Positions 4,865 through 34,458 of a stretch of DNA of 35,150 nucleotides are shown here, piece by piece (within the stretch, counting starts at the first letter, position 1; the number at the start of each line of letters is the position of its first letter). The position numbers and the translations under genes are program-made. The notes under the pieces were generated by a model, which made no database searches, was not told the DNA's origin, and saw only the letters and a program-made list of their open reading frames with translations. This DNA is from a virus. Location of the stretch: the IMG/VR virus record IMGVR_UViG_3300010399_000064, positions 1-35,150 of that record. The stretch is one strand, 5' to 3'.

Positions 4865-4912
4865 TCCTCTGGCTCCACCCAGCTTCTGAACCCAACGGGA
4901 GGTGTGTGGGCG

Positions 4913-6091
4913 ATGACCCATGTCGTCGATCGGGCCTACAGCTCCGAACTGCACCCGCACGAGCCGGCCGGCTCCTCGCAGGGCGGCCAGTTCGCCCCGG
5001 CCGGTAGCTCGCAGAAGCAGAAGGCCAAGCCGGGCCACCCGGCAGCGCATCAGAAGGCCAAGACCCAGACGCACCAGCATTCGGACACCCTGTCCTACGA
5101 CCCGGACTCCAACCACGGCACGGGCTACGGGATGAAGGGCGGCGACCCGCGGGTCCACAAGCTGCAGCAGGCGCTGAACCGGCTGGGCCTGACCGACGCC
5201 CACGGCAAGGAGCTGGCAGACGACGGCAAGTTGGGCCCGAAGACCACCGCCGCGGTGAAGAAGGCCCAGAAGCGTCTCGGCATGCGCCCAGACGGACACG
5301 TCACCCCGGCCCTGCTCGCCCGCCTCGCCGAGGCCAAATCACTGCCGGGCAGGAGCAGCATCATGATGGACACCTGCCTGCGGGCGTTCGACTTCGACAC
5401 CCGCGCGGTCACCTCGGACGGGCGGACCCTTGAGGGCTACGCGGCCGTGTTCAACACGGCCTCCCGCATCCGGGACCTGCAGGGCGACTTCGACGAGACG
5501 ATCCTGCCGGGCGCGTTCGCCCGCAGCCTGCGCTCCCGCACTCCGGTGCTGCAGTTCGAGCACGGCAAGGACCCTCGTATCGGCGCCGCCCCCATCGGCG
5601 ACATCGAGGAGCTGCGCGAGGACGAGCACGGCCTGTACGTGCGGGCCCGCCTCTACGACCACCCCGACATCGAGCGGGTCCGTCTGGCCATCGCCGGCCG
5701 CTCGATCCGGGGCATGAGCTTCCGGTTCGGCGTCCCCGACAAGGGTGACACCTGGACGCGCCGCGCCGGCGAACCGGACCTCAGGGAGATCCGCGACGCC
5801 GACGTGCACGAGCTCGGCCCGGTCGTGTTCCCCGCCTACGACACCACCAGCGTGTCCGTCCGGTCGCTGCTCGCCCAGCTGGACCCCGACGAACACCGCG
5901 CGCTGGTCCGCGAGCTCGCAGCCGAAGTCCGGCTCGCCGCGGACCTCACAGACCTCAGCGGGCGACCCGACGCGCGGAGCGCGGGTGGCGCTGACCCCGA
6001 CACGGAGCCAGGAAACGGTGCCGCGTCACCAATGCACCTACGCCAACGCCTCGATGACGGCGCCCTACGTACCAGAGGAATCCTGCAGTGA
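4913..6091 (+). CDS. HK97-type prohead protease (peptidase U35) with N-terminal peptidoglycan-binding-like domain
   Basis: The C-terminal part (from about residue 151 of 392) is the capsid maturation serine protease: LEGYAAVFN, DETILPGAFARSL, catalytic His about 217 in LQFEHGKDPRIG, catalytic Ser about 269 in RSIRGMSFRFG. It cleaves the capsid delta domain and scaffold inside the prohead. Ahead of it lie a motif ELHPHEPAGSSQGGQF (about 12-27), a charged linker, and a PG_binding_1-like domain (about 80-128: VHKLQQALNRLGL...DGKLGPKTTAAVKKAQKRLG). ATG 4913 is preferred over GTG 4904 because GGGAGG at 4897-4902 is too close to the GTG. The protein is ~150 residues longer than a typical protease. 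An internal ATG at 5363 has its own ribosome-binding site. The last 4 nt overlap the capsid gene (GTGA, the capsid start is the GTG at 6088). Confidence 0.92.
   Translation: MTHVVDRAYSSELHPHEPAGSSQGGQFAPAGSSQKQKAKPGHPAAHQKAKTQTHQHSDTLSYDPDSNHGTGYGMKGGDPRVHKLQQALNRLGLTDAHGKELADDGKLGPKTTAAVKKAQKRLGMRPDGHVTPALLARLAEAKSLPGRSSIMMDTCLRAFDFDTRAVTSDGRTLEGYAAVFNTASRIRDLQGDFDETILPGAFARSLRSRTPVLQFEHGKDPRIGAAPIGDIEELREDEHGLYVRARLYDHPDIERVRLAIAGRSIRGMSFRFGVPDKGDTWTRRAGEPDLREIRDADVHELGPVVFPAYDTTSVSVRSLLAQLDPDEHRALVRELAAEVRLAADLTDLSGRPDARSAGGADPDTEPGNGAASPMHLRQRLDDGALRTRGILQ
5351..5365 (+). promoter_or_regulatory. Internal ribosome-binding site and ATG inside the protease gene
   Basis: AGGAG at 5351-5355 is followed 7 nt later by ATG at 5363 (with a second ATG at 5366), in frame with the protease gene and exactly at the border between the peptidoglycan-binding-like part and the protease domain. 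Initiation here would give a 242-residue product of the usual size for prohead proteases. Use of this start is an inference from spacing and domain position. Confidence 0.5.
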
Positions 6092-6746: not shown

Positions 6747-7715
6747 CAAGGTGGCCGCCTGACGCCGTGAGGCGTCAGTGAAAAACCCGAGAATTGCTGG
6801 GACATCCCGTTAGACGTCCGCACCACAGCGTGAGACGAAAGCCTGAGCGCGATGGTTCGAGAAGCGGCCGGTAGGGACAATCAGCAGCCGAGCCCGCCTG
6901 GGGAAACCCGACGGGAAGGTTCAACGACCATGTACGGGTTATCTTATTTGACCCACTAGTTGTTCTAGACTCTAGTCTGTGTTCTCAGACAAGAACTGCG
7001 AGATCTGCGGTACCACCTTCACGCCCCGGCGTCGGACCGACCGAACGTGCTGCCTGGACTGCCAGATGCAGCACCGACGAAAGCTCAGCCGAGCGCGCGG
7101 CGCGCGCAACTACAAACCGCGAGCACCGCGACCCGACGTCACCTGCGAAGGCTGTCAGGCATCCGTGCCGACGCCGAAGACCGGACCGAAGCCGAAGTGG
7201 TGCAACGCCTGCCGGGCCACGAAGGAAGACGAGCGCGCACGCAAGCGCATCGCCGTCCGTCGCTGCCACAAGTGCCAGACGCCCGTCCCCGACGCCGAAC
7301 GTAAACCCGGCAAAGCCGTGTGCGACAACTGCCGTGTCGACCCTCGCAAGTACCGCGAGGCACACGAGCACCGGCGACGGCTGAGGAAGTACGGCATCGA
7401 TCAGGAGCGGTACGACCGGATGCTCGCCGAGCAGGACGGTCGCTGCCCTGGATGCCGCACGACCGACCCGGGCGTCAAGGGCTGGTGCATCGACCACTGC
7501 CACGCGACCGGACGTGTCCGCGCGTTGTTGTGCATGCGGTGCAACACCATGATCGGACTGGCCAACGAGGATCCCGCTATCCTCCGGGCGCTCGCAGACC
7601 TCGCAGAACAACTACGGATCGACCGAGATAAAGATATGGTCTGAGCTTCACGGAGACGTGAAGAGGCTGGCAGAAATGACCAGCCCCCTCGGCATGCCGA
7701 GGAGTAACAACACTG
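6747..7715 (+). ncRNA. Group I self-splicing intron in the major capsid gene
   Basis: The 969-nt interruption shows a full group I core. P1: 6743-6746 with 6754-6757, giving U.G at the 5' splice site. P10: 7716-7718 with 6748-6750. P2: 6759-6766 with 6771-6778, GUGA loop. P3: 6784-6789 with 6935-6940. P4: 6795-6799 with 6882-6886. P5: 6805-6808 with 6874-6877. P6: 6887-6889 with 6918-6920, and a P6 extension 6893-6896 with 6912-6915 ending in a GAAA loop at 6903-6906. P7: 6926-6931 with 7636-7641, inside the conserved GGUUCAACGACCA and AAGAUAUGGUCU segments. P8: 6941-6947 with 7628-7635 (one bulge). P9: 7646-7652 with 7657-7663, GAGA loop. Further hairpins lie at 7665-7685 and 7687-7702. The intron begins after U and ends in G (7715), the group I rule, and excision restores the capsid frame. 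Confidence 0.93.
6979..7644 (+). CDS. Intron-encoded HNH homing endonuclease, endonuclease VII-like
   Basis: 221 residues with four Cys pairs-of-pairs that look like stacked zinc ribbons: C7/C10/C25/C28, C56/C59/C75/C78, C96/C99/C115/C118 and C156/C159/C185/C188. The last one encloses the His-Me finger core IDHCHATGRVRALLCMRCN (about 171-189), as in recombination endonuclease VII-type HNH proteins. It lies in the P8 loop of the group I intron, so its probable role is to cut intronless capsid genes and promote intron spread. Its final codons (GAT ATG GTC TGA) also form the 3' strand of P7, so the protein end is constrained by the ribozyme. Start GTG 6979 has no clear ribosome-binding site; the true start is uncertain. 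Confidence 0.9.
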   Translation: MFSDKNCEICGTTFTPRRRTDRTCCLDCQMQHRRKLSRARGARNYKPRAPRPDVTCEGCQASVPTPKTGPKPKWCNACRATKEDERARKRIAVRRCHKCQTPVPDAERKPGKAVCDNCRVDPRKYREAHEHRRRLRKYGIDQERYDRMLAEQDGRCPGCRTTDPGVKGWCIDHCHATGRVRALLCMRCNTMIGLANEDPAILRALADLAEQLRIDRDKDMV

Positions 7716-8556
7716 CTTCATCGATCCTTCGATCATCATGACGGCGCAGGGCTCGGGTAACCCGTTCCTGCAGATCGCCCGCCAGGTCGACGTCAACACC
7801 AACGCCTGGAAGGGCGTCACCAGCGCCGGAGTCACCTGGTCGTTCGACACCGAAAACGTCGAGGTGTCCGATGACTCCCCGACGCTGGCCCAGCCCTCCG
7901 TGACCGTGTTCATGGCCCGCGGGTTCATCCCCTACTCGATCGAGGTCGGCCAGGACTACCCGTCGTTCGCGTCGGAGATGTCCACGCTGCTCGCCGAGGG
8001 CTACGACGAGTTGCTGGTCGACAAGTTCACCCGCGGCTCGGGCACCGGCGAACCGCAGGGCGTGCTGACGATCCTGTCCGCCACCGCCGGCAACCGGGTC
8101 GGCGTGCAGACCTCCGGCGCCAACTTCGGACCGGACGACCCGTACCGGGTGTGGAAGGCGCTGCCGCAGCGGTTCCGCCGCCGGGCGTCGTGGCTGATGT
8201 CGGTCGACGTCAACAACAAGATCCGCCAGATCGGTACGGCGAACGTGTTCCACGCCTACACCGAGAACCTGCCGGCGGAGTGGGCCGACCAGCTCTTCGG
8301 CAAGACCACCTACGAGTCGCCCTACATGCCTGACACGACCACGTCGACGGCGGCCAACAGTGGGCTCGCGGTCGTCGGGGACTTCCAGAACTACCTGATC
8401 GCCCGCCGGGGTGGGATGAGCGTGGAGAACATTCCGCACCTGTTCTCCACCACGACGAACCTGCCCTCGGGCACGCGCGGCTGGTTCGCCTACAGCCGCA
8501 TCGGCGGCGGCGTGGTCAACACGTCCGGCTTCCGGCTGCTCGTAAACACCGCGTGA
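7716..8556 (+). CDS. Major capsid protein, exon 2 (body of the HK97 fold)
   Basis: Continues the capsid protein after splicing: FIDPSIIMTAQGSGNPF and then the HK97-fold core (VDVNTNAWKGV, TVFMARGFIPYSIEVGQDYP, EGYDELLVDKFTRGSGTGEP, DPYRVWKALPQRFRRRASWL) to IGGGVVNTSGFRLLVNTA. The first base completes the Val codon begun in exon 1. An ATG at 7738 could be mistaken for a start, but the preceding seven codons (FIDPSII) are conserved capsid sequence and lie outside the intron. The capsid protein assembles into the icosahedral shell on the portal and scaffold. No lysine/asparagine crosslinking can be judged from sequence alone. Confidence 0.93.
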
Positions 8557-8840: not shown

Positions 8841-9193
8841 AACCATCCGATGATCCCCGTCGTGTACGCCATGGGTACCGACTTCGTTCCCCTCCCGGGC
8901 GGCAGCCGGGTCCGGGTCCAGAAGGGCACGCACTGGCCGGCCAACGACCCGGCCGTGCTCACCCGCCCCGAGCTGTTCTCGTCCGACCCCCGCTGGGGCA
9001 TGCAGTACACCAGCGAGCCCGAGGGCTACGACGCGCCGATCGAAACGGCCACCGCCACCCCGGGCGAGCGGCGCAACACCCGCCGCGCCTCCTGATCTCC
9101 TCCGGCCGGACTTCTCGGATGGTTGGCCGGCCGGAGGTTCACCAACCATCCGCTCAACCATCCGAAGGACGAACCAGGTGAGCGAACCATCCG
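8841..9193 (+). repeat. Four direct and one inverted copies of AACCATCCG bracketing a small gene
   Basis: AACCATCCG occurs at 8841-8849, 9144-9152, 9156-9164 and 9185-9193, and inverted at 9116-9124. The inverted copy and the 9144 copy form an 11-bp stem (9116-9126 with 9142-9152). The repeats sit at the ribosome-binding/start regions of the gene at 8850 and of the first glycosyltransferase, so they mark the left boundary of the sugar cassette. Confidence 0.7.
8850..9095 (+). CDS. Hypothetical small virion-region protein
   Basis: 81 residues from ATG 8850, with AGGAAGGA at 8831-8838 upstream (11 nt); ATG 8871 is an alternative. The sequence (DFVPLPGGSRVRVQKGTHWPANDPAVLTRPELF) has the character of a compact beta protein, with a Thr/Arg-rich tail. 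Similar short proteins follow capsid genes in actinophages and are usually annotated as hypothetical head proteins. It is flanked on both sides by copies of the 9-mer AACCATCCG. Confidence 0.7.
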   Translation: MIPVVYAMGTDFVPLPGGSRVRVQKGTHWPANDPAVLTRPELFSSDPRWGMQYTSEPEGYDAPIETATATPGERRNTRRAS

Positions 9194-10629
9194 CCGGCGC
9201 CGTCGCCGCCGCGTACATCCACACCGATCAGGTCTGGTACTCGTGGCATCATTCGATGCTGCAACTGCTCGACCACGACATGGCCAACCACGCCCGCATC
9301 TGGACCGGCGGATATGTGACGATCCGCTGCGGCACCGGGGACCTGGCCGCCGCGCGCAACACGGCGGTCAGCGAGTTCCTGGCCGAGGCCCGGGCCGACT
9401 GGCTGTGGTGGGTCGACACCGACATGGGATTCGGCGCCGACACCGTCGACCGGCTGGTCGCCGCGGCGGACCCGGTCGAGCGGCCCGTGGTGGGCGCGTT
9501 GTGTTTCGCCAACCGCGAGGTCGACAACGACGGTATGGGTGGCCGCCGCGCACTCGCCGCACCGGTGATCATGTACTGGACCCACGACGGTGAGGAAGCC
9601 GGCTTCGACACCCGCTGGGACTATCCGGCCAACACGGTCGTGCGTTGCGATGGCGTCGGCTCGGCCTGCGTCCTGATCCACCGCTCGGTGTTCGAGCGGG
9701 TCGCAGCCGAGTACGGGCCGAACTGGTACTCGCGGGTTCGTAACCCGTCGACCAACGCGATGGTCGCCGAGGACCTGTCCTTTTGCGCCCGGCTGATGGC
9801 GCTGGGCATTCCGGTGCACGTGCACACCGGAGTGCCGACCACGCACGCCAAGACGATGTGGCTCGGCGAGGAGGACTACTGGCGGCAGCGGGCCCTGAAC
9901 GCCCCGCCACCGGCCCCGGTCGCCGAGGCGCTGGCCCGGCAGGAAAGGACCTGGACGGTCCCGCGGTACGCGATCGTCCCCACCCACAACCGGCCGGCCC
10001 GGCTGCTGGCGCTCGTCGCATCGCTCGGCGGCCAGTGCGATCGCATCGTGGTCCTCGACAACGCGAGCAGCCCGCCGGTCGACGCCGACAAGCTCAGTGC
10101 GGCGGTCCCGGCCGAATGCGTGGTCGAGATCATCCGCGACGAGGAGCAGCCGCCGCACCTGGCCCGCTTCTGGAATGTGATGTTCGACCGCTGCGACGAA
10201 CTGGCTCTCGCTGCCGGCAAGGAAGGCGACCTGTACGACGTCGCCGTCTTCAACGACGATGCGGTCGTTCCTGCGGGCTGGTACGACGCCTGCTCAACCG
10301 GGCTGCGCGCACACCCGACCGCGGTCATCGCCCACACCGGCCCCACCAGCCCGCCGCTGCTGACCGAGCTACACAACGAGCCGGGCAACCGGATGACCCC
10401 GCACGCCTTCGTCATCCGCGGCGAAGCGGGCATGCGCGCCGACGAGGACATGCGCTGGTGGTACTTCGACACCGACCTGGACTGGCGTGCCCGCCAGGCC
10501 GGCGGCGTCCTGTCCGTCCCCGGTCCGCGAGTCGCGAACTCGCTGGCGAACTCGACCACCCACGGGGCGCTCGCCGAGCAGGCCGAGAAGGACCGAGCCA
10601 CATTCGAAGCCAAATGGGCCACGCAGTGA
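9178..10629 (+). CDS. Bifunctional glycosyltransferase (two GT-A domains)
   Basis: 483 residues with two nucleotide-sugar transferase domains. The first (about 1-240) has ARNTAVSEFLAEARADWLWW followed by VDTDMGF, whose DTD is the metal/nucleotide-sugar motif, and VGALCFANRE. The second (about 262-483) begins YAIVPTHNRPARLLALVASLGG and IVVLDNASSP, typical of GT2, with an acidic motif VAVFNDDAVVPAGWYD and WWYFDTDLDWRARQAGG near the catalytic loop. It probably transfers two sugars in succession to a protein or lipid acceptor. It is the first gene of a coupled cassette; the next gene begins inside its stop codon. GTG start at 9178. The acceptor is not shown by sequence; virion proteins are the likeliest target given the position. 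Confidence 0.82.
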   Translation: MSEPSAGAVAAAYIHTDQVWYSWHHSMLQLLDHDMANHARIWTGGYVTIRCGTGDLAAARNTAVSEFLAEARADWLWWVDTDMGFGADTVDRLVAAADPVERPVVGALCFANREVDNDGMGGRRALAAPVIMYWTHDGEEAGFDTRWDYPANTVVRCDGVGSACVLIHRSVFERVAAEYGPNWYSRVRNPSTNAMVAEDLSFCARLMALGIPVHVHTGVPTTHAKTMWLGEEDYWRQRALNAPPPAPVAEALARQERTWTVPRYAIVPTHNRPARLLALVASLGGQCDRIVVLDNASSPPVDADKLSAAVPAECVVEIIRDEEQPPHLARFWNVMFDRCDELALAAGKEGDLYDVAVFNDDAVVPAGWYDACSTGLRAHPTAVIAHTGPTSPPLLTELHNEPGNRMTPHAFVIRGEAGMRADEDMRWWYFDTDLDWRARQAGGVLSVPGPRVANSLANSTTHGALAEQAEKDRATFEAKWATQ

Positions 10630-11240
10630 TCGGCTACGGCTGCTGCGTCGGCTCCTGGGACAAGCTGCGCCGCAACGTCGCACCCCGCACCGTGGATCGC
10701 CCGCTGTTTGCCCTGTCCGGACAGACGCAGCTCACCGCCGCCTACAACGCCATCCTCGACGCCCACCGCGGCCAGGATCGCGACGCCGTGATCCTGCTTC
10801 ACGACGACCTCGACATGTTCGACGCGCAGGCTGAGGAGAAGTTCCTCAGGGCCCTCGCCGAACCGGACGTCGCGCTCGCCGGAGTCTGCGGAGGCAAAGG
10901 GGACGCGACGCTGGCTTGGTGGACGTCGGAGACCGTCGGCCACCAGATGACCGACTCGGGGATGCTCGACTTCGGCACCCGCACCGGCGACGTGGCCTTC
11001 ATCGAGGGCTCGATCATGGTGTTCTCGCCGTGGGCCGTGGAGAACCTGCGCTTCGACGAGCGGTACCCGGGATTCCTCGGCTACGACGACGTCTGCCTGA
11101 CCGCCCGGGCCGCCGGCAAGCGGGTGGTCGTGGCCGACGTGGACACCCACCACCACTCCACGGTCGGGTTCAAATCCAAGGCCATCGCCGCGGCCTGGAA
11201 CGTCGCCGAGGAGATCTTCCAGGAAAAGTGGTCGCGGTGA
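10626..11240 (+). CDS. Glycosyltransferase, GT-A fold
   Basis: 204 residues starting at a GTG that overlaps the previous stop (GTGA), as elsewhere in this cassette; ATG 10614 is an alternative. The core has QTQLTAAYNAILDAH, then AVILLHDDLDMFDA (acidic metal motif), and the acceptor-side motif FDERYPGFLGYDDVCLTARAAG with an invariant-looking acidic pair and HHHSTVGFKS near the end. This matches small bacterial GT-A transferases that act on glycan ends. No membrane segment is present, so it acts in the cytoplasm, presumably on the same acceptor as its neighbours. Confidence 0.78.
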   Translation: MIGYGCCVGSWDKLRRNVAPRTVDRPLFALSGQTQLTAAYNAILDAHRGQDRDAVILLHDDLDMFDAQAEEKFLRALAEPDVALAGVCGGKGDATLAWWTSETVGHQMTDSGMLDFGTRTGDVAFIEGSIMVFSPWAVENLRFDERYPGFLGYDDVCLTARAAGKRVVVADVDTHHHSTVGFKSKAIAAAWNVAEEIFQEKWSR

Positions 11241-12424
11241 GACGGACCTCCTGCTCGGCGTGCGCCAGTCCCGACCTGGATCAGTTTCTCGACCTGGGCG
11301 CGTCCCCGATCGCCGACGCCTACACGGCCGGCCCGGATGATCCGTCGCCGACCTACCCGCTGCAGGTGGCGGCGTGCGCGAAGTGCCGACTCGTGCAGCT
11401 ACTCGAGGTCGTCGACCACGAGGTGCTCTTCGGCACCGGCTACAGCTTCTACTCCTCGGCCAGCCCGCCCCTGTCGGCCTACCACAAGGCGTACGCGCGG
11501 GACGTTCTGGCTGCACACGAGGCGCTGGCGCGCCGGGGTGTCGTCGAGGTCGGCTGCAACGACGGCGACCTGCTCCGCCACTTCGTCGCCTACCCGACGC
11601 TCGGCGTCGACCCGGCCACCGGCCCGGCCGCCGCCGCGGCGCAGCGAGGCATCGAGGTGATGGTCCGCCCGTTCGGCCTGGCCGCCGCCCACGACATCCG
11701 CGACCGGCGTGGCCGGCAGGGCCTGGTCTTCGCCAACCACGTCCTGGCCCACGTCGCCGACGTCGCCGACGTCCTGGCTGGGATCTCCGCGCTGCTCGCC
11801 GCGGACGGCGTCGCGATGGTCGAGGTGCAGTACCTGCCCGACCTGCTGGTGGGCAACGCATTCGACCTCGTCTACCACGAGCACCGCAACTTCTTCTCCC
11901 TGACCAGCCTGGAACAGGCCGCCGGCCGGCACGGGCTGCACGTGGCCGACGCGCAGCTGACCTCCCGACAGGGCGGATCCCTGCGGGTCGCCCTCACGGC
12001 CGAGCCCGGCCGGTCGCGGGCAGTGGACAAGATCCGCGCCTCGGAGACGTGGTTGAACCAGTGGGGCGCCTACGAGGGCATGCAGGGCCGGGTCGAGCGC
12101 ATCCGTGACCGCCTGCTGGACCTGCTCGCCGCCGAGCGCACCGCTGGGCGCACCGTCGCCGGCTACGGCGCGCCGGCCAAAGCCACCACCCTGCTGAACT
12201 TCTGCGGCCTGACCCGCGCGGACATCGACTGGGTCAGTGACACGACCGCGGCGAAACAGGGCCGGCACATCCCGGGAACCGCCATCCCGATCGTGGAGCC
12301 GGGCACGCGGGCCGCGGACACGCGCCTGCTGCTGGCGTGGAACTACCTGCCGCAGATCATGCGGCAGGAACGCGACTTCGCCGGCAGTTGGATCGTGCCC
12401 ATCCCGGCGCCGGTGTTGCTGTGA
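11237..12424 (+). CDS. SAM-dependent sugar C-methyltransferase (TylC3/NovU-like)
   Basis: 395 residues with the three-part layout of nucleotide-sugar C-methyltransferases: an N-terminal zinc-binding part (SCSACASPDLDQFLDLG and CAKC near residue 47), a Rossmann SAM-binding part (VVEVGCNDGDLLRHF, about 97-111), and a C-terminal part with YHEHRNFFSLTSL and VAGYGAPAKATTLLNF. Family members methylate carbon 3 or 5 of 4-keto-6-deoxy nucleotide sugars. The following gene encodes a GDP-mannose 4,6-dehydratase-like enzyme whose product would be such a 4-keto sugar, so the pair likely makes a branched methyl-deoxysugar. Start GTG overlaps the previous stop by GTGA. The methylated position is not deducible. 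Confidence 0.87.
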   Translation: MRRTSCSACASPDLDQFLDLGASPIADAYTAGPDDPSPTYPLQVAACAKCRLVQLLEVVDHEVLFGTGYSFYSSASPPLSAYHKAYARDVLAAHEALARRGVVEVGCNDGDLLRHFVAYPTLGVDPATGPAAAAAQRGIEVMVRPFGLAAAHDIRDRRGRQGLVFANHVLAHVADVADVLAGISALLAADGVAMVEVQYLPDLLVGNAFDLVYHEHRNFFSLTSLEQAAGRHGLHVADAQLTSRQGGSLRVALTAEPGRSRAVDKIRASETWLNQWGAYEGMQGRVERIRDRLLDLLAAERTAGRTVAGYGAPAKATTLLNFCGLTRADIDWVSDTTAAKQGRHIPGTAIPIVEPGTRAADTRLLLAWNYLPQIMRQERDFAGSWIVPIPAPVLL

Positions 12425-13302
12425 GAGCGCTGATCCTCGGCGTCACCGGCCAGGACGGCTCCTACCTCGCCGAGCAGCTCCTCGCCGCCGGCCACGAGGT
12501 CTTCGGCATGGTGCGCCGGTTCAACCTCGAACCCTCACCGGTGCGCCTGGTCGCCGGGGACCTGCTCGATCAGGACTCGATCGAACGGGCCCTGACCAGG
12601 GTGCGCCCCGACGAGGTGTACAACCTGGCCGCCGTAACCTCGCCCGGCGGAACCTGGGGCACGCCCCAACCGCCACTGCTGGCCGACACCACCGGTCTCG
12701 GCGTCATACGGCTCATGGACGCCATGCTCAAATGCGCACCCGAGGCCCGACTGGTCCACGCTTCCTCCTCGGCGATCTACGACCCACACCGCTACGGCCT
12801 GTACGGGGTCGCGAAGCTGTTCGCCCACCAGGCGGTCATCGGCTACCGCGGCGTGCTGCAGTGCTCGAACGCGGTCCTGTTCTCGCACACCTCACCCCGA
12901 CAGGACCCGAGGTTCCTGGCCCGGCGTATCACCTCTACCGTCGCCCGCATCGCCGCCGGCAGTCCCGAGCACCTGGTCCTCGGCGACGTCGAGTCGCGGC
13001 GCGATTGGGGCTACGCACCTGACTACGTCCAGGCCCTGCCGCTGATCGCCCGCCACGGTCCCGGCGACTACGTCATCGCCACCGGCCGCACCCACTCGGT
13101 ACGGGAACTGACCCAGGCTGCCCTGCAGGCGGCCGGCCTGGACTGGGACCGGGTCGTCCAGATCGACCCCGCCGCCCCGCGGATCCCCGACGAGATCCAC
13201 CCGGACTCGCAGGACGGCCGGCTCGCCACCAGCCACGCCTTGGGATGGAAGCCGCAGACAAGCTTCACCGACATGATCGACCAGATGGTCCGGGCCGCGT
13301 GA
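12421..13302 (+). CDS. GDP-mannose 4,6-dehydratase-like SDR enzyme
   Basis: 293-residue extended short-chain dehydrogenase. The NAD(P) loop is LILGVTGQDGSYLAEQLL at the N-terminus, catalytic YGVAK lies near residue 127-131, and the region LFSHTSPRQDPRFLARRIT followed by LGDVESRRDWGYAPDYV is the hallmark of GDP-mannose 4,6-dehydratases. These convert GDP-mannose to GDP-4-keto-6-deoxymannose. It is shorter than the usual ~340-370 residues, and the usual SSAE-type catalytic motif reads SSSAIYD, so substrate range may differ. GTG start overlapping the methyltransferase stop; the last codons overlap the next GT. Confidence 0.87.
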   Translation: MRALILGVTGQDGSYLAEQLLAAGHEVFGMVRRFNLEPSPVRLVAGDLLDQDSIERALTRVRPDEVYNLAAVTSPGGTWGTPQPPLLADTTGLGVIRLMDAMLKCAPEARLVHASSSAIYDPHRYGLYGVAKLFAHQAVIGYRGVLQCSNAVLFSHTSPRQDPRFLARRITSTVARIAAGSPEHLVLGDVESRRDWGYAPDYVQALPLIARHGPGDYVIATGRTHSVRELTQAALQAAGLDWDRVVQIDPAAPRIPDEIHPDSQDGRLATSHALGWKPQTSFTDMIDQMVRAA

Positions 13303-13898
13303 GCGCCGGCACCACCGAAGTTCCGGGCATCACCGTCGTCATCCCCGTCATCCCCCCGCGCACCGGGCCGAGCGGCACCTACGAGCGAGCCGTACGCAGT
13401 GTCCAAGCCCAGACCCGGCCGCCGGCAAAGATCCTCGTCGAGCTCGACGTCGACCGGACCGGAGCAGCGGCGACCCGTAACCGGCTCCTCGAGCGGGTCA
13501 CCACCGAGTGGGTGGCGTTCCTCGACGACGACGACGAGCTCTACCCCGACCACCTGCGCCTGCTGCTGCGCTTCGCCCGCCTCACCCGCGCCGATGTGGT
13601 CTACCCCGGCTACGACACCACCGGCACCGACGAGATCAACTGCTTCGGACTGCCCTTCGACAGTGCGCTGCTGGCGAAGGCGAACTTCATCCCCGTCACG
13701 GCGCTCGCCCGCACCCAGACGGTGCGCGACGCCGGCGGCTTCCAACCCCACGCCGACCGTAACGGCGACCCGTGCGAGGACTGGGGACTGTGGCTGGCCA
13801 TGCACCGCGCCGGGGCCAAGTTCGCCCATCTGCCCGTCAAGACGTGGCGGTGGCACAACGACCGTCCAACCACCCGAGGTAGACCCGAGCGCCGGTAG
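13299..13898 (+). CDS. Glycosyltransferase family 2-like protein
   Basis: 199 residues: N-terminal ITVVIPVIPPRTGPSGTYERA, then AATRNRLLERVTTEWVAFLDDDDELYPDHL, where the run of Asp is the metal/nucleotide-sugar motif of GT2 enzymes, and the catalytic-side GGFQPHADRNGDPCEDWGLWLAM, with ED as the likely general base. The end (KTWRWHNDRPTTRG) is typical of short GT2 proteins. It closes the five-gene coupled cassette; the following gene has its own ribosome-binding site. It probably adds the deoxysugar made by the dehydratase/methyltransferase pair, an inference from neighbourhood. Confidence 0.85.
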   Translation: MSAGTTEVPGITVVIPVIPPRTGPSGTYERAVRSVQAQTRPPAKILVELDVDRTGAAATRNRLLERVTTEWVAFLDDDDELYPDHLRLLLRFARLTRADVVYPGYDTTGTDEINCFGLPFDSALLAKANFIPVTALARTQTVRDAGGFQPHADRNGDPCEDWGLWLAMHRAGAKFAHLPVKTWRWHNDRPTTRGRPERR

Positions 13899-13906
13899 GG
13901 GGAATC

Positions 13907-14131
13907 GTGGCCACACCCATCGAGCGGGAAAAGCTCCTCAGTCTGGGCTACCTGTCCGCAGGTCGGACCATGTCCCGGGTGCGCGAAAGTCGGCGTGCTG
14001 ACGGCGTGCGGGTCAAAGCCACCACCGACGAGCTCGGCAACACCGTCACCGAACATGCGACCGGCGACCGGCAGGACGTGCACATCCGAGCCAAGCCGAT
14101 CCGTGCCCACATTGAGGAGCTACGTCGATGA
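13907..14131 (+). CDS. Small basic protein, unknown function
   Basis: 74 residues, rich in Arg, Glu and Thr (LSLGYLSAGRTMSRVRESRRADGVRVKATTDELGN is representative in pieces). GTG start at 13907 with AGGGGGA (13897-13903) upstream. The stop overlaps the next start (ATGA). No family recognised; it sits where head-associated small genes are expected. Confidence 0.72.
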   Translation: MATPIEREKLLSLGYLSAGRTMSRVRESRRADGVRVKATTDELGNTVTEHATGDRQDVHIRAKPIRAHIEELRR

Positions 14132-17259: not shown

Positions 17260-18189
17260 GTGAGTGCGACGGTCTTCTTCAGCTCGGCCAACGAGTTGGC
17301 AACCCTGTCCAACACGTTCGCCGTCGACGGCACCGCCACCGACCCGACCGCGGTGACCCTGACCGTGACCTCGCCGTCGAGCGTGGTCACCTCCTACACC
17401 TGGCCTACCCCGGCGACTCTGACCAGGACCGGACCCGGGGCGTTCACCACGGACAAGGTCAGCGACGAGTCGGGAACCTGGACCGGCCGGTGGGACGGAA
17501 CCGGCAGTGCCAGCGATACCGCCCTCGTCACCTGGGACGTGCAGGAAACCGCCCTCGGCCGCCTCTACGCCACCGTCGAAGCGCTCAAGTCGCGGATGCG
17601 GATCACCGGCACCAACGACGACTACGAACTGCACACGGCCTGCTTCTCGGCCTCCCGGGCCGTCGAGCAGGAGTGCGAGCGCCACTTCTGGCGAACCACC
17701 GCGGCCGAGGTGCGCACCTTCGAGCCCTGCGGCACCTACGTCGTGAACATGACCGAGTTCAACGACCTGGTCTCGATCGCCACCCTGAAGACCGACTCCA
17801 GCGGCGACGGCGTCTACGACACCACGTGGGCCGTGTCGGACTACCAGCTGTGGCCGCCCAACCCTTCTGCCGCCCCCGAACCCAAGCCGCACAGCCACGT
17901 CCGGGCGGTCGGCAACCAGGTGTTCCCGACCGTGTTCACGGTCGGGGCACGCACCAACGTCGTGGAGATCACCGGCGTGTTCGGCTGGCCGGCGGTGCCG
18001 CGCACCATCCAGCAGGCGGCGTTGCTGCTGGCGCAGGACACCTTCAGCCTCAAGGACACCAAGTTCGGGGTGGCACAGTTCGGCGACCTGACCGTCAGCG
18101 TCGGGACGGCCGGCCGGATCAACCCGATGATCGATCCGTATCGGCGCAACCCGCGGGCCCGTGACGGGCAGAAAATGTTCGTCCGGTGA
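17260..18189 (+). CDS. Head-tail connector (gp6-like) with an N-terminal Ig-like domain
   Basis: 309 residues from GTG 17260 (AGGTGAG upstream). The first ~95 form an Ig-like beta-domain (TVFFSSANELATLSNTFAVD ... WTGRWDGTGSASDTALVTWD). The rest (about 105-309) resembles the helical head-tail adaptor: ALKSRMRITGTNDDYELHTA, CFSASRAVEQECERHFW, GVFGWPAVPRTIQQAALLLA, FSLKDTKFGVAQFGDL, NPMIDPYRR. The adaptor ring sits on the portal and receives the tail. An Ig-like extension on a connector is unusual and may project outward for surface binding. The stop overlaps the next gene (GTGA). Confidence 0.82.
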   Translation: MSATVFFSSANELATLSNTFAVDGTATDPTAVTLTVTSPSSVVTSYTWPTPATLTRTGPGAFTTDKVSDESGTWTGRWDGTGSASDTALVTWDVQETALGRLYATVEALKSRMRITGTNDDYELHTACFSASRAVEQECERHFWRTTAAEVRTFEPCGTYVVNMTEFNDLVSIATLKTDSSGDGVYDTTWAVSDYQLWPPNPSAAPEPKPHSHVRAVGNQVFPTVFTVGARTNVVEITGVFGWPAVPRTIQQAALLLAQDTFSLKDTKFGVAQFGDLTVSVGTAGRINPMIDPYRRNPRARDGQKMFVR

Positions 18190-18599
18190 CCGCGACCTTG
18201 ACGCAGGTCCGGCAGGCCCTGGCCGCCGTGCTGGGCACCGTCGACGGGCTGAATCCCTACGCGTTCCGGGCCGGCACGATCGTCGAGCCGGCCGCCGTGG
18301 TCACGCCGGCGCCGGGCGAGTTCCTGAATTTCAAGCCCACCCTGGCCACCGCGGTGGACATGCGGCTGCTGGTCGGGCTGTTCGTGTCCGCGGCCAGTGA
18401 CGAGGCCGGCAGCACCAACCTCGACGCGTTCCTCGCCGACTCGGGCCCGTCCTCGATCTACGCCGCGCTCGCCGCGGACTCGACCCTCGGCGGCCTGGTC
18501 GACGACGCGTCACTGACCGCCGCGCAGGACTACGGCACCTACAGCTACAACAGCGTCGACTACTACGGGTGCGAGTTCCTGGTGGAGGTCATGCTGTGA
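18186..18599 (+). CDS. Tail terminator / neck protein candidate
   Basis: 137 residues; GTG start inside the connector stop. The sequence has LTQVRQALAAVLGTVDGL, RLLVGLFVSAASDEAGSTN and a C-terminal beta stretch (YGTYSYNSVDYYGCEFLVEV), the alpha/beta layout of tail-terminator proteins, which close the tail tube and join it to the head. Position directly after the connector and ahead of the tail tube supports this. Its stop overlaps the start of a glycosyltransferase. Confidence 0.68.
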   Translation: MTATLTQVRQALAAVLGTVDGLNPYAFRAGTIVEPAAVVTPAPGEFLNFKPTLATAVDMRLLVGLFVSAASDEAGSTNLDAFLADSGPSSIYAALAADSTLGGLVDDASLTAAQDYGTYSYNSVDYYGCEFLVEVML

Positions 18600-19612
18600 G
18601 GTTCCTCGTGGCCCAGCCCGGCCCGGCCTTCGCGGTGGCCGACGTGCACAACGGCTGGTGCGAAGCGCTGCGCGAACTCGGGCAGGACGTGTTCGAGTTC
18701 AACCTCGACGCCCGGCTGTCCTTCTACAACTCGGTGCTGCTGCCCGACGTCGATGGCCAGCCGAAGCCGGCGTTGACCGGCGAGCAGGCCAACGAGCTTG
18801 CGGTCAACGGCCTGTACGCGGCGATCCTGAAGGTACGCCCGCACGTGCTGCTGTCGGTGTCGAGTTTCTTCACCCCGCCGGAGCTGCTCGACATCGCCCG
18901 GGCGGCCGGCGTGAAGGTCGTGCTCCTGCACACCGAGTGCCCGTACGAGAACGAGCGCCAGGTCCAGATCGGCCAGCATGCCGACCTGAACATCGTCGAC
19001 GACCCGACCGGCATCGAGGAGTTCCCGCCGGGTACCAGTTACTTCTGCAAGGCGTACCGGCCAAGCGTCCACCGGCCGGGCCCGGCCGAGCCGGACCTCG
19101 CCAGCGACCTCGTGTTCGTCGGCACTGCGTTCCCGTCGCGGATCCGTTTCCTCGAGGCGATGGACCTCGACGGCATCGACGTCGCGCTGGCCGGCAACTG
19201 GACGATGCTCGCCGAGGACTCCCGCCTGCGCGAGTACCTCGCCCACGAGATCGGCACCTGCCTGCCCAACGAGGACACGGTCCGGCTCTACCGCAGCGCC
19301 AGGGTCGGCATCAACCTGTACCGGCGCGAGGCCCAGGCCCGGCACCTGTCCAGGGGCTACAGCCTGGGACCCCGCGAGTTGGAGATGGCAGCCTGTGGGC
19401 TGTTCTTCCTCAGGGAGCCCAGACCCGAGGGTGACGACGTCCTCGACATGCTGCCCACCTTCACCGGCGCCGGGGACGCCTCCGAACAGCTGCGCTGGTG
19501 GCTTGCCCATCCGGACCAAGCCGAGGCGGCAGCGCTGAAAGCCCGCGAAGCGATCGCGGACCGTACGTTCGTTCGTCATGCTCGCCGCTTGCTGCGGCTG
19601 CTCGACACGTAG
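18596..19612 (+). CDS. Glycosyltransferase, GT-B (CgeB-like)
   Basis: 338 residues starting at GTG 18596, overlapping the previous stop. The N-terminal half (FLVAQPGPAFAVADVHNGWCEAL, LKVRPHVLLSVSSFFTPPELL, VVLLHTECPYENERQ) and C-terminal half (DLVFVGTAFPSRIRFLEAM, VRLYRSARVGINLYR, GPRELEMAACGLFFLREP) form the two Rossmann-like domains of GT-B enzymes. The final motif, with Glu-Met-Ala-Ala-Cys-Gly, is the nucleotide-sugar site seen in CgeB and related GT1-like proteins. It sits in the tail operon, 12 nt before the tail-tube gene, which suggests the tail tube or another tail protein as acceptor. It has no companion sugar-synthesis genes here. Confidence 0.83.
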   Translation: MRFLVAQPGPAFAVADVHNGWCEALRELGQDVFEFNLDARLSFYNSVLLPDVDGQPKPALTGEQANELAVNGLYAAILKVRPHVLLSVSSFFTPPELLDIARAAGVKVVLLHTECPYENERQVQIGQHADLNIVDDPTGIEEFPPGTSYFCKAYRPSVHRPGPAEPDLASDLVFVGTAFPSRIRFLEAMDLDGIDVALAGNWTMLAEDSRLREYLAHEIGTCLPNEDTVRLYRSARVGINLYRREAQARHLSRGYSLGPRELEMAACGLFFLREPRPEGDDVLDMLPTFTGAGDASEQLRWWLAHPDQAEAAALKAREAIADRTFVRHARRLLRLLDT

Positions 19613-31836: not shown

Positions 31837-32022
31837 TCAGGTCGTCCGGACCAACGCCGGATCCACCGCGGCGATCGCCCGCCGCAGGTGCTCCTGCTGG
31901 TGCTCCCGGACCCGCCGGTCCCACACGTCCCGCTCCACCCGCACGCCATTCGGCGGGTCCTGGCGGTGCGTTCCACCGTCGTAGTGCAGCAGCTCGTCGC
32001 CCGGCTGGTCGAGGATGCTCAC
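31837..32022 (-). CDS. Small charged protein, unknown function
   Basis: 61 residues from GTG 32022 with GGGAGGG 6 nt upstream. Sequence LDQPGDELLHYDGGTHRQDP, ERDVWDRRVREHQQEHLRRA, ending in a hydrophilic tail; no membrane segment. It ends 29 nt before the membrane-anchored gene start, forming a small minus-strand operon with it. I find no family match. Confidence 0.7.
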   Translation of the reverse strand: MSILDQPGDELLHYDGGTHRQDPPNGVRVERDVWDRRVREHQQEHLRRAIAAVDPALVRTT

Positions 32023-32227
32023 GGCCAACCCTCCCTTCGCGAGGGGGCGGGCCCGGCGGCCGCGCGCTGAACGCCAACGACCGCCGCGCCCTGACCTGGG
32101 AGCCGCTCTCCGCCGCGGGCCGGTCCGAGTCAGACTGCCCCGGGGTTGCCTGCGGCGGAGGGCGGTAGGGGTGATGGTAGCCACTTGGCCTCTTGGCCAA
32201 CACCCCTTGTGCCGAATTGGCGACCGT
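32023..32227. other. Divergent intergenic region between the minus-strand accessory operon and the GntR-like gene
   Basis: 205 nt without a supported gene. It holds the GC-rich ribosome-binding site of the minus-strand gene (32029-32035) and, near its right end, the TTGGCC repeats (32183-32200). No sigma-70 consensus pair is clear for either direction. Confidence 0.6.
32183..32200 (+). promoter_or_regulatory. Putative operator: repeated CTTGGCC and palindrome TTGGCCAA
   Basis: ACTTGGCC at 32183-32190 and TCTTGGCC at 32191-32198 stand 8 bp apart, and TTGGCCAA (32193-32200) is a perfect palindrome; a third weaker TTGGC is at 32217-32221. They are in the divergent space before the GntR-like regulator, whose own family commonly binds such palindromes. 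Autoregulation is inferred. Confidence 0.6.
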
Positions 32228-32626
32228 ATGGTCCGTGCCGTGATCGATCCGCGTAGTGGCGTGCCGCTGTACCGGCAGCTCGCCGCGCTGCTGCGCGCCC
32301 GCATCGTGGATGGCACCTGGGCGCCCGGGCATCCCTTGCCGGCCGAGCCGGACCTGGCCGCGGAGTACGGGTTGGGCAAGGACACCGTCCGTGACGCCCT
32401 GTCGGAGCTGCGCGCCGAGGGTCTGATCGAGACCCGTCGTGGTCATCGGACGCGGGTGCGTGAGCAGGTCGAGCCGCAGCTGGTACGCCTGCGTCGCGGC
32501 GAGCGGGTCGCGGCCCGGATGCCGAGTCCGGCGGAGCGGGCCGAGTATGACCTGCCGGACGGCGTGCCGATGCTGGTGGTTGGCGACCAGGTGTACCCGG
32601 CGGACCGGTACGTCCTGGTGATCTGA
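32228..32626 (+). CDS. GntR-family transcriptional regulator
   Basis: 132 residues from ATG 32228. The winged HTH is clear: PLYRQLAALLRARIVDGTWA, PGHPLPAEPDLAAEYGLGKD and TVRDALSELRAEGLIETRRG. The C-terminal ~55 residues (RLRRGERVAARMPSPAERAE, PMLVVGDQVYPADRYVLVI) are far shorter than usual effector domains, so it resembles the small GntR-like regulators of actinobacterial mobile elements. It faces the minus-strand accessory operon across a 205-nt divergent region and probably controls one or both sides. Confidence 0.85.
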   Translation: MVRAVIDPRSGVPLYRQLAALLRARIVDGTWAPGHPLPAEPDLAAEYGLGKDTVRDALSELRAEGLIETRRGHRTRVREQVEPQLVRLRRGERVAARMPSPAERAEYDLPDGVPMLVVGDQVYPADRYVLVI

Positions 32627-33230: not shown

Positions 33231-34049
33231 CTAGCGGGATTCAGGGCGCGGGAGGGGGAGTGACCTGATTGCGGTCCGGCACTCCTCCTCCGACGCCTGG
33301 ACGTAGACCTGGACGCTGCTCAGGGACTTCCACCGGCCGGCGCGCTGGATGGTGAAGCTGTCGGCCCCGCCCGCCCGGAGGGCGAACGCGAAGGTGTGCC
33401 GACCGCGGTGGAGCGCGACGCCGGGCAACCCGAGTTGATATCGGAAGTGGCCGGCGCAGCGAAGCGAGACCCACTTCGCGTCCGCCACCCCCCCGAGGTG
33501 CTCGACGATCGAGCCGGGCGGCAGGTCGCGGACCTTCGCCCAGATCTCCGGCGCGGTCGGTACGGAGGCGCGCCGGCCGCCCTTGGCCACCCGCAGGTAG
33601 ATGGTGTCCTCGGTGATGTCCTCGCGACGCAGCGCGGCGATCTCGCAGGCCCGCAGCCCCGCGTACAGGGCCAGCACGAAGCAGGTCCGGTACGGCTCGC
33701 CGGCTCCGGTCAGCACCTGCCTGATCTGCTGGCCGGTGAGGGGCCGCGGCTCGCCGGGCGGGGCCGGCGGCCGGGGCAGGTTGAGCATCGGGTTGCGATC
33801 CAGGTGGCCGAACACCACGCACCAGGAGTAGAAGCCGGACAGGTGCCGCCAGTAGATGTTGCGGGTGGCCGGCCCGAACCGGGGGTTCCCGAGGAACGCC
33901 ACGATGTCGGTCTCGTCCACCAGCTCGACGCCGAGCGGCAACTCCCGGTCCGCCCTACCCAGGAGCTTGCCCCGATCTTCGATGGTTCGTCGGGCTCTGC
34001 CCGAACTCCGCAGCCACGCGAGGTGCGGCACAATAAGGTCTGAACTCAT
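33231..34049 (-). CDS. int: Tyrosine recombinase / phage integrase
   Basis: 272 residues from ATG 34049 (GAGG about 10 nt upstream; ATG 34070 alternative). The core-binding domain (about 1-95) has a charged N-terminus and YWRHLSGFYSWCVVFGHLDR. The catalytic set is complete: Arg in LYAGLRACEIAAL, Lys in RVAKGGRRASV, HRGRH (His and Arg), Trp in AGRWKSLSSV (as H/W position), and Tyr in VQVYVQASEEE. It integrates the phage at a bacterial attachment site. It is 10 nt downstream of the repressor gene on the same strand, so the two are likely co-transcribed. Confidence 0.92.
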   Translation of the reverse strand: MSSDLIVPHLAWLRSSGRARRTIEDRGKLLGRADRELPLGVELVDETDIVAFLGNPRFGPATRNIYWRHLSGFYSWCVVFGHLDRNPMLNLPRPPAPPGEPRPLTGQQIRQVLTGAGEPYRTCFVLALYAGLRACEIAALRREDITEDTIYLRVAKGGRRASVPTAPEIWAKVRDLPPGSIVEHLGGVADAKWVSLRCAGHFRYQLGLPGVALHRGRHTFAFALRAGGADSFTIQRAGRWKSLSSVQVYVQASEEECRTAIRSLPLPRPESR

Positions 34050-34059
34050 TCTGTGATCC

Positions 34060-34458
34060 TCACGCTGCATCGCGTAGTGCCGGAACGGGCATCGGGGGAC
34101 TCGTGCGCCGCGTTCGGCCGACCCGGCCTGGACCCCGGCCCGGCCCACCGACCGGCCGATTGTCGACCGGCCGAACAGGTGGACCCGGCTCCCCGTGGGT
34201 AGCTTGTTCCGTCGATCGGACATCGGTCGTTGGTAACAGGTTGACCCACGGCACGCCGAGCGCGTCGCCGATGCGTTCCAGGTCATCCAGGTCGAACGCG
34301 GTCTCCCCAGTGAGCCGGCGCCAGATGTAGGTCTGGCTGACGCCGAGCTGCCGCGCCAACGCCGCCGCGCTCATTCGCCGGCGGGTCAGTGCGACCCGGA
34401 CTTCCTCGGCTACCCGCTCGCGGAGCGGTGCCCCGGCCGAGGTGGAATCTGCAGTCAT
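34060..34458 (-). CDS. XRE-family immunity repressor candidate
   Basis: 132 residues with an HTH in MSAAALARQLGVSQTYIWRR LTGE (about residues 27-50), then FDLDDLERIGDALGVPWVNL, and a Pro/Arg-rich C-terminus (about 80-132). ATG 34458 is chosen because the predicted promoter would start the mRNA right there (leaderless); ATG 34467 is alternative. The gene diverges from the Cro-like gene at 34584, shares its HTH pattern, and lies between the operators and the integrase, as a lysogeny repressor would. It is short, with no peptidase domain for SOS cleavage. Confidence 0.83.
   Translation of the reverse strand: MTADSTSAGAPLRERVAEEVRVALTRRRMSAAALARQLGVSQTYIWRRLTGETAFDLDDLERIGDALGVPWVNLLPTTDVRSTEQATHGEPGPPVRPVDNRPVGGPGRGPGRVGRTRRTSPPMPVPALRDAA

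Follow-up and report, generated by a model that had tools for sequence, protein, structure and literature searches.

The window analysed here, the whole 35,150-base stretch of DNA that makes up record IMGVR_UViG_3300010399_000064, comes from an uncultured tailed phage, a soil-type bacterial virus, and carries a cassette of five sugar genes (g1 to g5, 9178–13898) among its structural genes. The reading that we favour, and that we think has a somewhat better than even chance of being right, is that this is a phage virion-glycosylation cassette which makes its sugar unusual by C-methylation: the methyltransferase g3 would act on a nucleoside diphosphate (NDP)-4-keto-6-deoxysugar made by the host, and g4, a short-chain dehydrogenase/reductase (SDR) related to GDP-mannose 4,6-dehydratase (GMD), would finish the product.

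The cassette consists of five plus-strand open reading frames (ORFs; g1, 9178–10629; g2, 10626–11240; g3, 11237–12424; g4, 12421–13302; g5, 13299–13898), placed directly after the capsid gene and a likely connector gene and before the head–tail adaptor, and each of its four junctions is exactly a GTGA overlap. Between them the genes encode four glycosyltransferase (GT) domains on three proteins, one C-methyltransferase and one GMD-like SDR. The flanks are structural, with terminase, portal, protease and capsid upstream and adaptor, tail terminator and major tail protein downstream. A first-pass annotation of the letters had described five genes joined by 4-nt GTGA overlaps amid structural genes and had named their families as GTs, a NovU/TylC3-like C-methyltransferase, a GMD-like enzyme and a GT2; the ORFs, junctions and flanks were all confirmed, and the families were matched by profile and fold searches. 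The GTGA overlaps were considered as a special feature and rejected as such, since 4-nt overlaps are common in this phage (at least four pairs outside the cassette, at 6088–6091, 8553–8556, 14128–14131 and 18186–18189) and therefore indicate one operon but nothing special. The grouping is better than chance, the methyltransferase being found at 48–78% identity in 48 viral contigs with the gene order largely kept, and purifying selection acts on both g3 (median dN/dS 0.32, 169/171 pairs) and g4 (median 0.39, 170/171 pairs).

The methyltransferase g3 (395 amino acids) has the architecture Methyltransf_13, Methyltransf_23 and Methyltransf_14 (PF08421, PF13489 and PF08484; 63.2, 61.4 and 126 bits, all above cut-off), and its best solved matches are MtmC (4rv9, E 1.3e-72) and TcaB9 (8e-70). 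C6, C9, C47, C50, Y69, H172, Y213 and H216 are present in 48 of 48 aligned rows and E215 in 47, the single exception being a change to Gln. In this family the conserved cysteines are zinc ligands, and the two Tyr, the two His and the Glu are active-site residues. The active-site Tyr and Glu positions are backed by mutant PDB chains (4e31 and 4e2y). With domain architecture and catalytic residues both present, g3 is, as judged from its sequence, an intact sugar C-methyltransferase of the TylC3/NovU/TcaB9 type, and its earlier assignment to the NovU/TylC3 type stands. In the phage collection it matched seven records, none above 36.7% identity. Known C-methyltransferases of the TylC3/NovU/TcaB9 family use 4-keto-6-deoxysugars, which they methylate at C3 or C5. 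According to PMC3539893, 3-C-methylation of the TylCIII type takes place on an NDP-4-keto-6-deoxyhexose; for one TylCIII-type enzyme, from S. argillaceus, that paper reports a 4-ketoreductase activity of its own.

The case of g4 (293 amino acids) is different. It belongs to the GMD/extended SDR family (PF16363, 216.1 bits, cut-off 27), and its AlphaFold2 (AF2) model (pLDDT 90.9) has a Z of about 34 to GMD structures. Against the NCBIfam gmd equivalog TIGR01472 it reaches 181.4 of 415 bits, and two cassette relatives reach 172.5 and 153.8, although it should be noted that this cut-off is weak when used alone because Glu-bearing phage GMDs (loci L044 and L088) also fall under it, at 349 and 325; among the curated families scanned no reductase or epimerase equivalog was matched at its cut-off. 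GMDs carry the motif [ST]SExnYx3K, in which one Glu is the sole extra acid/base residue, and GalE carries [ST]xnYx3K without any (PMC8987622); Glu133, Arg190 and the RR loop are given as GMD signatures in PMC3584063. In GMDs the conserved Arg (Arg190 in BceN, Arg185 in P. aeruginosa) orients substrate and cofactor. These positions were compared in 86 distinct phage SDRs, of which 22 are of the cassette type and 64 are other phage GMDs. The catalytic motif is ASSSAIY in g4 as against AS[TS]SE[ML][FY] in GMDs, so that the position of the catalytic Glu is Ala118 in 22/22 cassette SDRs and Glu or Asp in 64/64 of the others. At the position of the conserved Arg (its equivalence read by eye from the alignment with 1rpn) all 22 cassette SDRs have Gln161 and 63 of the 64 others have Arg; at that of the conserved Asn the 22 have Ser and the 64 have Asn. 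The substrate loop is 11 residues long in every cassette SDR compared with 22–24 in the others, and the RR-loop segment 15–19 compared with mostly 26–28 (range 20–32), a loss that is partial in that the two leading Arg are retained in 21/22. The redox core is kept: neither group varies in the cofactor glycines (GxxGxxG), Tyr128, Lys132 or Arg-Asp-Trp 194–196, and at position 116 all 86 have Ser or Thr and the 22 have Ser. H113, D162 and D189 are newly fixed in the cassette SDRs and might be candidates for a substitute acid near Ala118. What is left after loss of the Glu is the pattern [ST]xnYx3K without the dehydratase acid/base residue, as in GalE, and SSAIY resembles SSCIY at the same place in GDP-fucose synthase, a 4-keto epimerase/reductase. 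Compared with the GMDs of TIGR01472, therefore, g4 shares sequence family, fold, cofactor motif and Ser/Tyr/Lys but has neither the catalytic Glu nor the conserved Arg, and its loops are shortened.

As g4 has lost both residues and half of its substrate loop, the claim that the phage makes a 4-keto-6-deoxysugar by a GMD of its own is unsupported. Nor was another dehydratase or nucleotide-sugar activation gene found in the records searched that carry a cassette-type (A-type) SDR, although these records are fragments and absence from them is no proof. Because it is under purifying selection, g4 is, on this evidence, a specialised enzyme rather than a decaying one, and it probably performs a step other than dehydration. 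More tentatively, and at rather less than even probability, it may represent a phage-specific branch of the GMDs which, with loss of the Glu and half of the substrate loop, turned from dehydratase to C4 oxidoreductase paired with a phage C-methyltransferase.

The relatives of the cassette bear on both its function and its history, although their records, too, are fragments. A scan for the methyltransferase yielded 56 loci, the 48 already mentioned and eight at about 30% identity; the order g1-g2-g3-(g4)-g5 is kept in many of them, and the cassette-type SDR occurs in 26 viral contigs. Of the 23 cassette-SDR loci, 14 have a capsid gene upstream. Among the nine without one, seven are on contigs whose start falls inside the cassette or no more than about 0.6 kb from it; L004 and L025 have more than 6 kb upstream with no capsid match and a different context. 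The GTs thus lie beside virion structural genes, as is characteristic of a phage virion glycosylation cassette. A single change (support 92/82) accounts for the rows of the methyltransferase tree that have a cassette SDR, the SDR-less rows inside that clade (L014, L020, L023 and L031) are best read from the tree as losses or replacements, and the rows in which the methyltransferase is paired with a Glu/Asp-bearing GMD lie outside it (such pairs are found at L042, L044, L064–L067 and L088); the branch of the Synechococcus phage DSL-LC02 is very long and its placement unsure.

Several variants of the cassette were seen. At L022 and L029 a different SDR precedes the methyltransferase, that of L022 being RmlB-like (165 bits against a cut-off of 365). 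At L016 and L017 the place expected for g2 holds two genes, one of the GT4 type and one for an epimerase of the RmlC family (PF00908, 138.8 bits; best PDB match NovW, 6.1e-38). Of the 27 viral records searched, 11 have no gene of the Epimerase family, so that phages often retain the methyltransferase with no SDR of their own; one group of loci (L020, L023, L031, L034, L036, L038–L040, L046 and L048) retains g2 and the C-methyltransferase with no adjoining GMD-like SDR and has two or more g5-like GTs. PF00908 was found in one of 28 records and PF00483 in three of 28, all three from the SDR-less group, and on these counts a complete phage-borne sugar pathway was rejected. Two further genes were noted in these loci: one of about 170 amino acids with a class I methyltransferase-like start in L034, L040 and L048 (the L048 copy without a Pfam match), and an HNH-endonuclease-like gene, recognized by eye, inserted between methyltransferase and SDR in L015 (5922–6455).

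The remaining cassette proteins are GTs. The product of g1 (483 amino acids) is a tandem two-module GT-A/GT2 enzyme, with phrog_34859 matched by residues 48–234 (E 7.6e-21) and PF00535 by residues 265–323 (33 bits, cut-off 23.3); several relatives match it over the second half only. The small protein g2 (204 amino acids) is weak by sequence (PF13632 at 20.1 bits, under the 27-bit cut-off) and had no tblastn match in the phage collection, but its motifs HDDLD, ED-like and HHH are conserved in an alignment of 27 rows, and its AF2 model (pLDDT 95.7) has a Z of 20.4 to the GT-A protein majastridin (2nxv/2qgi; root-mean-square deviation 2.6 over 193 residues) and of about 15 to ppGalNAc-T2, so that by predicted fold it is a GT-A glycosyltransferase. 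The last gene, g5 (199 amino acids), encodes a GT2 enzyme (PF00535, 44.3 bits; phrog_14775, 2.7e-32). An extra GT-B-type gene, absent from the first-pass annotation, lies on the plus strand at 18569–19612 (PF13524, 55 bits), with the tail terminator gene on one side and the major tail protein gene on the other; it is 53–60% identical in many relatives, GMD-paired ones included, and may serve tail glycosylation.

If the phage does not make its own 4-keto-6-deoxysugar the host may supply it. A scan of 84,980 genomes turned up the A-type SDR on a single contig of 3,150 bases, from a metagenome-assembled genome (MAG) of the Micromonosporaceae, which also carries a methyltransferase gene of the g3 family and looks phage-derived; this contig aside, no cellular methyltransferase among 394 sampled genomes of the class comes closer than about 40% identity. 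In a sample of 61 Micromonosporaceae genomes RmlB scored over cut-off in 51 and GMD in nine, so that host supply of a 4-keto-6-deoxysugar is plausible, on gene content, if the host resembles this family. The window has a G+C content of 69%, its nucleotide sequence had no match in the phage collection, and its terminase is nearest, among the matches listed, to those of Rhodococcus, Mycobacterium and Gordonia phages (about 27–34% identity).

Noviose-type modules with NovW, NovU and NovS are known from actinomycete antibiotic clusters, and as a NovW-like epimerase is present in one lineage of the cassette, the logic of noviose synthesis offers the simplest scheme. The host would supply the 4-keto-6-deoxysugar, most likely dTDP-4-keto-6-deoxyglucose from RmlA/RmlB; this might be epimerized, as by the NovW-like enzyme of the L016/L017 lineage; g3 would add the methyl branch; g4 would reduce, or reduce and epimerize, the 4-ketone, in the slot of NovS; and g1, g2 and g5 would transfer the branched sugar, perhaps within a short glycan, to capsid or tail proteins. 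The cassette resembles the noviose module in having a C-methyltransferase of the NovU/TylC3/TcaB9 family beside an SDR (and in L016/L017 the epimerase as well) but it lies on a phage beside capsid genes, its SDR derives from GMD and is not a NovS-type reductase, and a search of A-type phage records found no RmlA/RmlB. The sugar is likely to go onto virion proteins, judging by gene position and by analogy with mycobacteriophages, whose virion glycosylation (Freeman et al. 2023, as cited in PMC11600133 and PMC12619734) involves GTs that adjoin an O-methyltransferase and act on the capsid and tail tube proteins (PMC11600133). As described there, those actinophage systems likewise combine several GTs with a methyltransferase gene, but theirs is an O-methyltransferase and the present cassette has a C-methyltransferase and an SDR. 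The earlier proposal of virion glycosylation with a C-methyl sugar thus keeps its methyltransferase, its several GTs and their conserved placement next to capsid and tail genes, and loses its phage-encoded dehydratase step.

Several points weigh against host supply followed by finishing by g4. The descent of g4 from GDP-mannose enzymes argues for a GDP-sugar rather than a dTDP-sugar, whereas the L016/L017 epimerase points to dTDP, which leaves the nucleotide carrier ambiguous; the NovW-like gene is moreover limited to that one lineage (two contigs), and the loci with Glu/Asp-bearing GMDs pair the same methyltransferase family with a candidate dehydratase. The host assignment depends on the single MAG contig and the actinophage-like terminase matches, and the fragmentary records may have pathway genes beyond their ends. 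Finally g3 is closest to MtmC, and self-ketoreduction of the TylCIII type (PMC3539893) would leave g4 another job.

Four other explanations were weighed. The first, unlikely but the best of them, is that g4 is a C4 oxidoreductase/epimerase without dehydration, oxidizing C4 of an NDP-hexose for g3 to methylate and then reducing it again, the product being a C-methyl hexose that is not 6-deoxy. The GalE-like pattern and the retention of Ser116, Tyr128, Lys132 and GxxGxxG in 22/22 would suit such a redox-neutral loop, which needs no dehydratase and fits the finding of none in A-type records; the known substrates of the family (given also in PMC3539893) and the NovW-like partner in L016/L017 point instead to 6-deoxysugars. 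Secondly, and with a distinctly low probability, the cassette may decorate DNA or the host surface and not the virion, for example to exclude superinfection or convert the serotype: an integrase is encoded at 33231–34286, and phage GTs that modify DNA or serotype are described in PMC12619734. Its location in a late structural operon, with the capsid-to-adaptor placement conserved in relatives, speaks against this, as does, more weakly as some small ORFs were unscanned, the lack of a flippase or base-hypermodification gene among the window proteins scanned. Very improbable is a third view, in which g4 has no catalytic activity left and persists as a paralogue serving g3 as scaffold or partner, with g3 methylating and reducing unaided like MtmC: MtmC is indeed the best solved match of g3, and many relatives have the methyltransferase without any SDR, but Ser/Tyr/Lys, GxxGxxG and RDW are invariant in 22/22 cassette SDRs and dN/dS is low, as in a working redox enzyme. 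That g4 is a working GMD, for all its PF16363 score, fold and the GMD-paired related loci, is scarcely credible and was rejected, given the change of Glu to Ala and Arg to Gln, the shortened loops in 22/22 and 181 of 415 bits for the equivalog.

The first-pass annotation had also presented a phage-encoded branched-sugar pathway as apparently new, and this novelty holds only in part. In DSL-LC02 (OR032571) a GMD, a C-methyltransferase and a GDP-L-fucose synthase are consecutive, with many GTs besides, so that the idea of such a pathway in a phage is already present, unremarked, in deposited sequence. The DSL-LC02 methyltransferase has the same three domains (PF08421/PF13489/PF08484) and likewise stands among sugar genes in a row, but it is 21.5% identical to g3, its partners are a true GMD (557 bits, cut-off 415) and a separate reductase, and its source is a T4-like cyanophage, metagenome-assembled. 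Cyanophage GMD and fucose synthase are known (PMC9602691, PMC10611076); the parts of PMC10611076 that describe DSL-LC02 treat these two and leave the methyltransferase undiscussed. In the pathway proposed for virenose, a C-methyl 6-deoxysugar of Coxiella lipopolysaccharide, an NDP-4-keto-6-deoxyhexose similarly undergoes TylCIII-type 3-C-methylation and then reduction, but this, as given in PMC3539893, is an in silico proposal for a bacterial surface polysaccharide, with an intact dehydratase. In the open-licence literature, judged by titles and abstracts, no paper on a phage C-methyl sugar pathway was found. As far as these searches show, what is new is the recurrent actinophage-type cassette, its place next to the capsid and its Glu-less GMD offshoot.

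The genes recognized in the window as a whole are those for terminase, portal, prohead protease, capsid, adaptor, tail terminator, major tail protein, endolysin and integrase. The major capsid protein (plus strand, 7738–8556; PF05065, 100 bits) lies outside the pathway and is a likely acceptor or neighbour. The integrase (minus strand) together with a GntR-family regulator (32015–32626) indicates that the phage is probably temperate. The prohead protease (Peptidase_S78, 4904–6091) is fused at its N-terminus to a peptidoglycan-binding domain (PF01471, 48 bits), which we judge unusual. Downstream of the protease region and ahead of the capsid gene is an endonuclease VII-like gene (6979–7644); its matches in relatives L008 and L037 are located elsewhere, which suggests a mobile insertion.

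Virion glycans alter how phages are recognized, and the sugars that phages can make are largely unknown. If g4 has indeed turned into a C4 oxidoreductase that works with g3, the virus could build methyl-branched sugars from host nucleotide sugars and coat its particle with them, and by a redox-neutral cycle of oxidation, methylation and reduction even GDP-mannose could serve. The small size of g3 and g4 makes direct assays practicable, and in the repurposed dehydratase nature offers a clean experiment on the part that one residue and a loop play in setting the type of reaction carried out by an SDR. Through a recurrent phage cassette for C-methyl sugars, deoxysugar chemistry of the actinomycete antibiotic type would reach virus particles.

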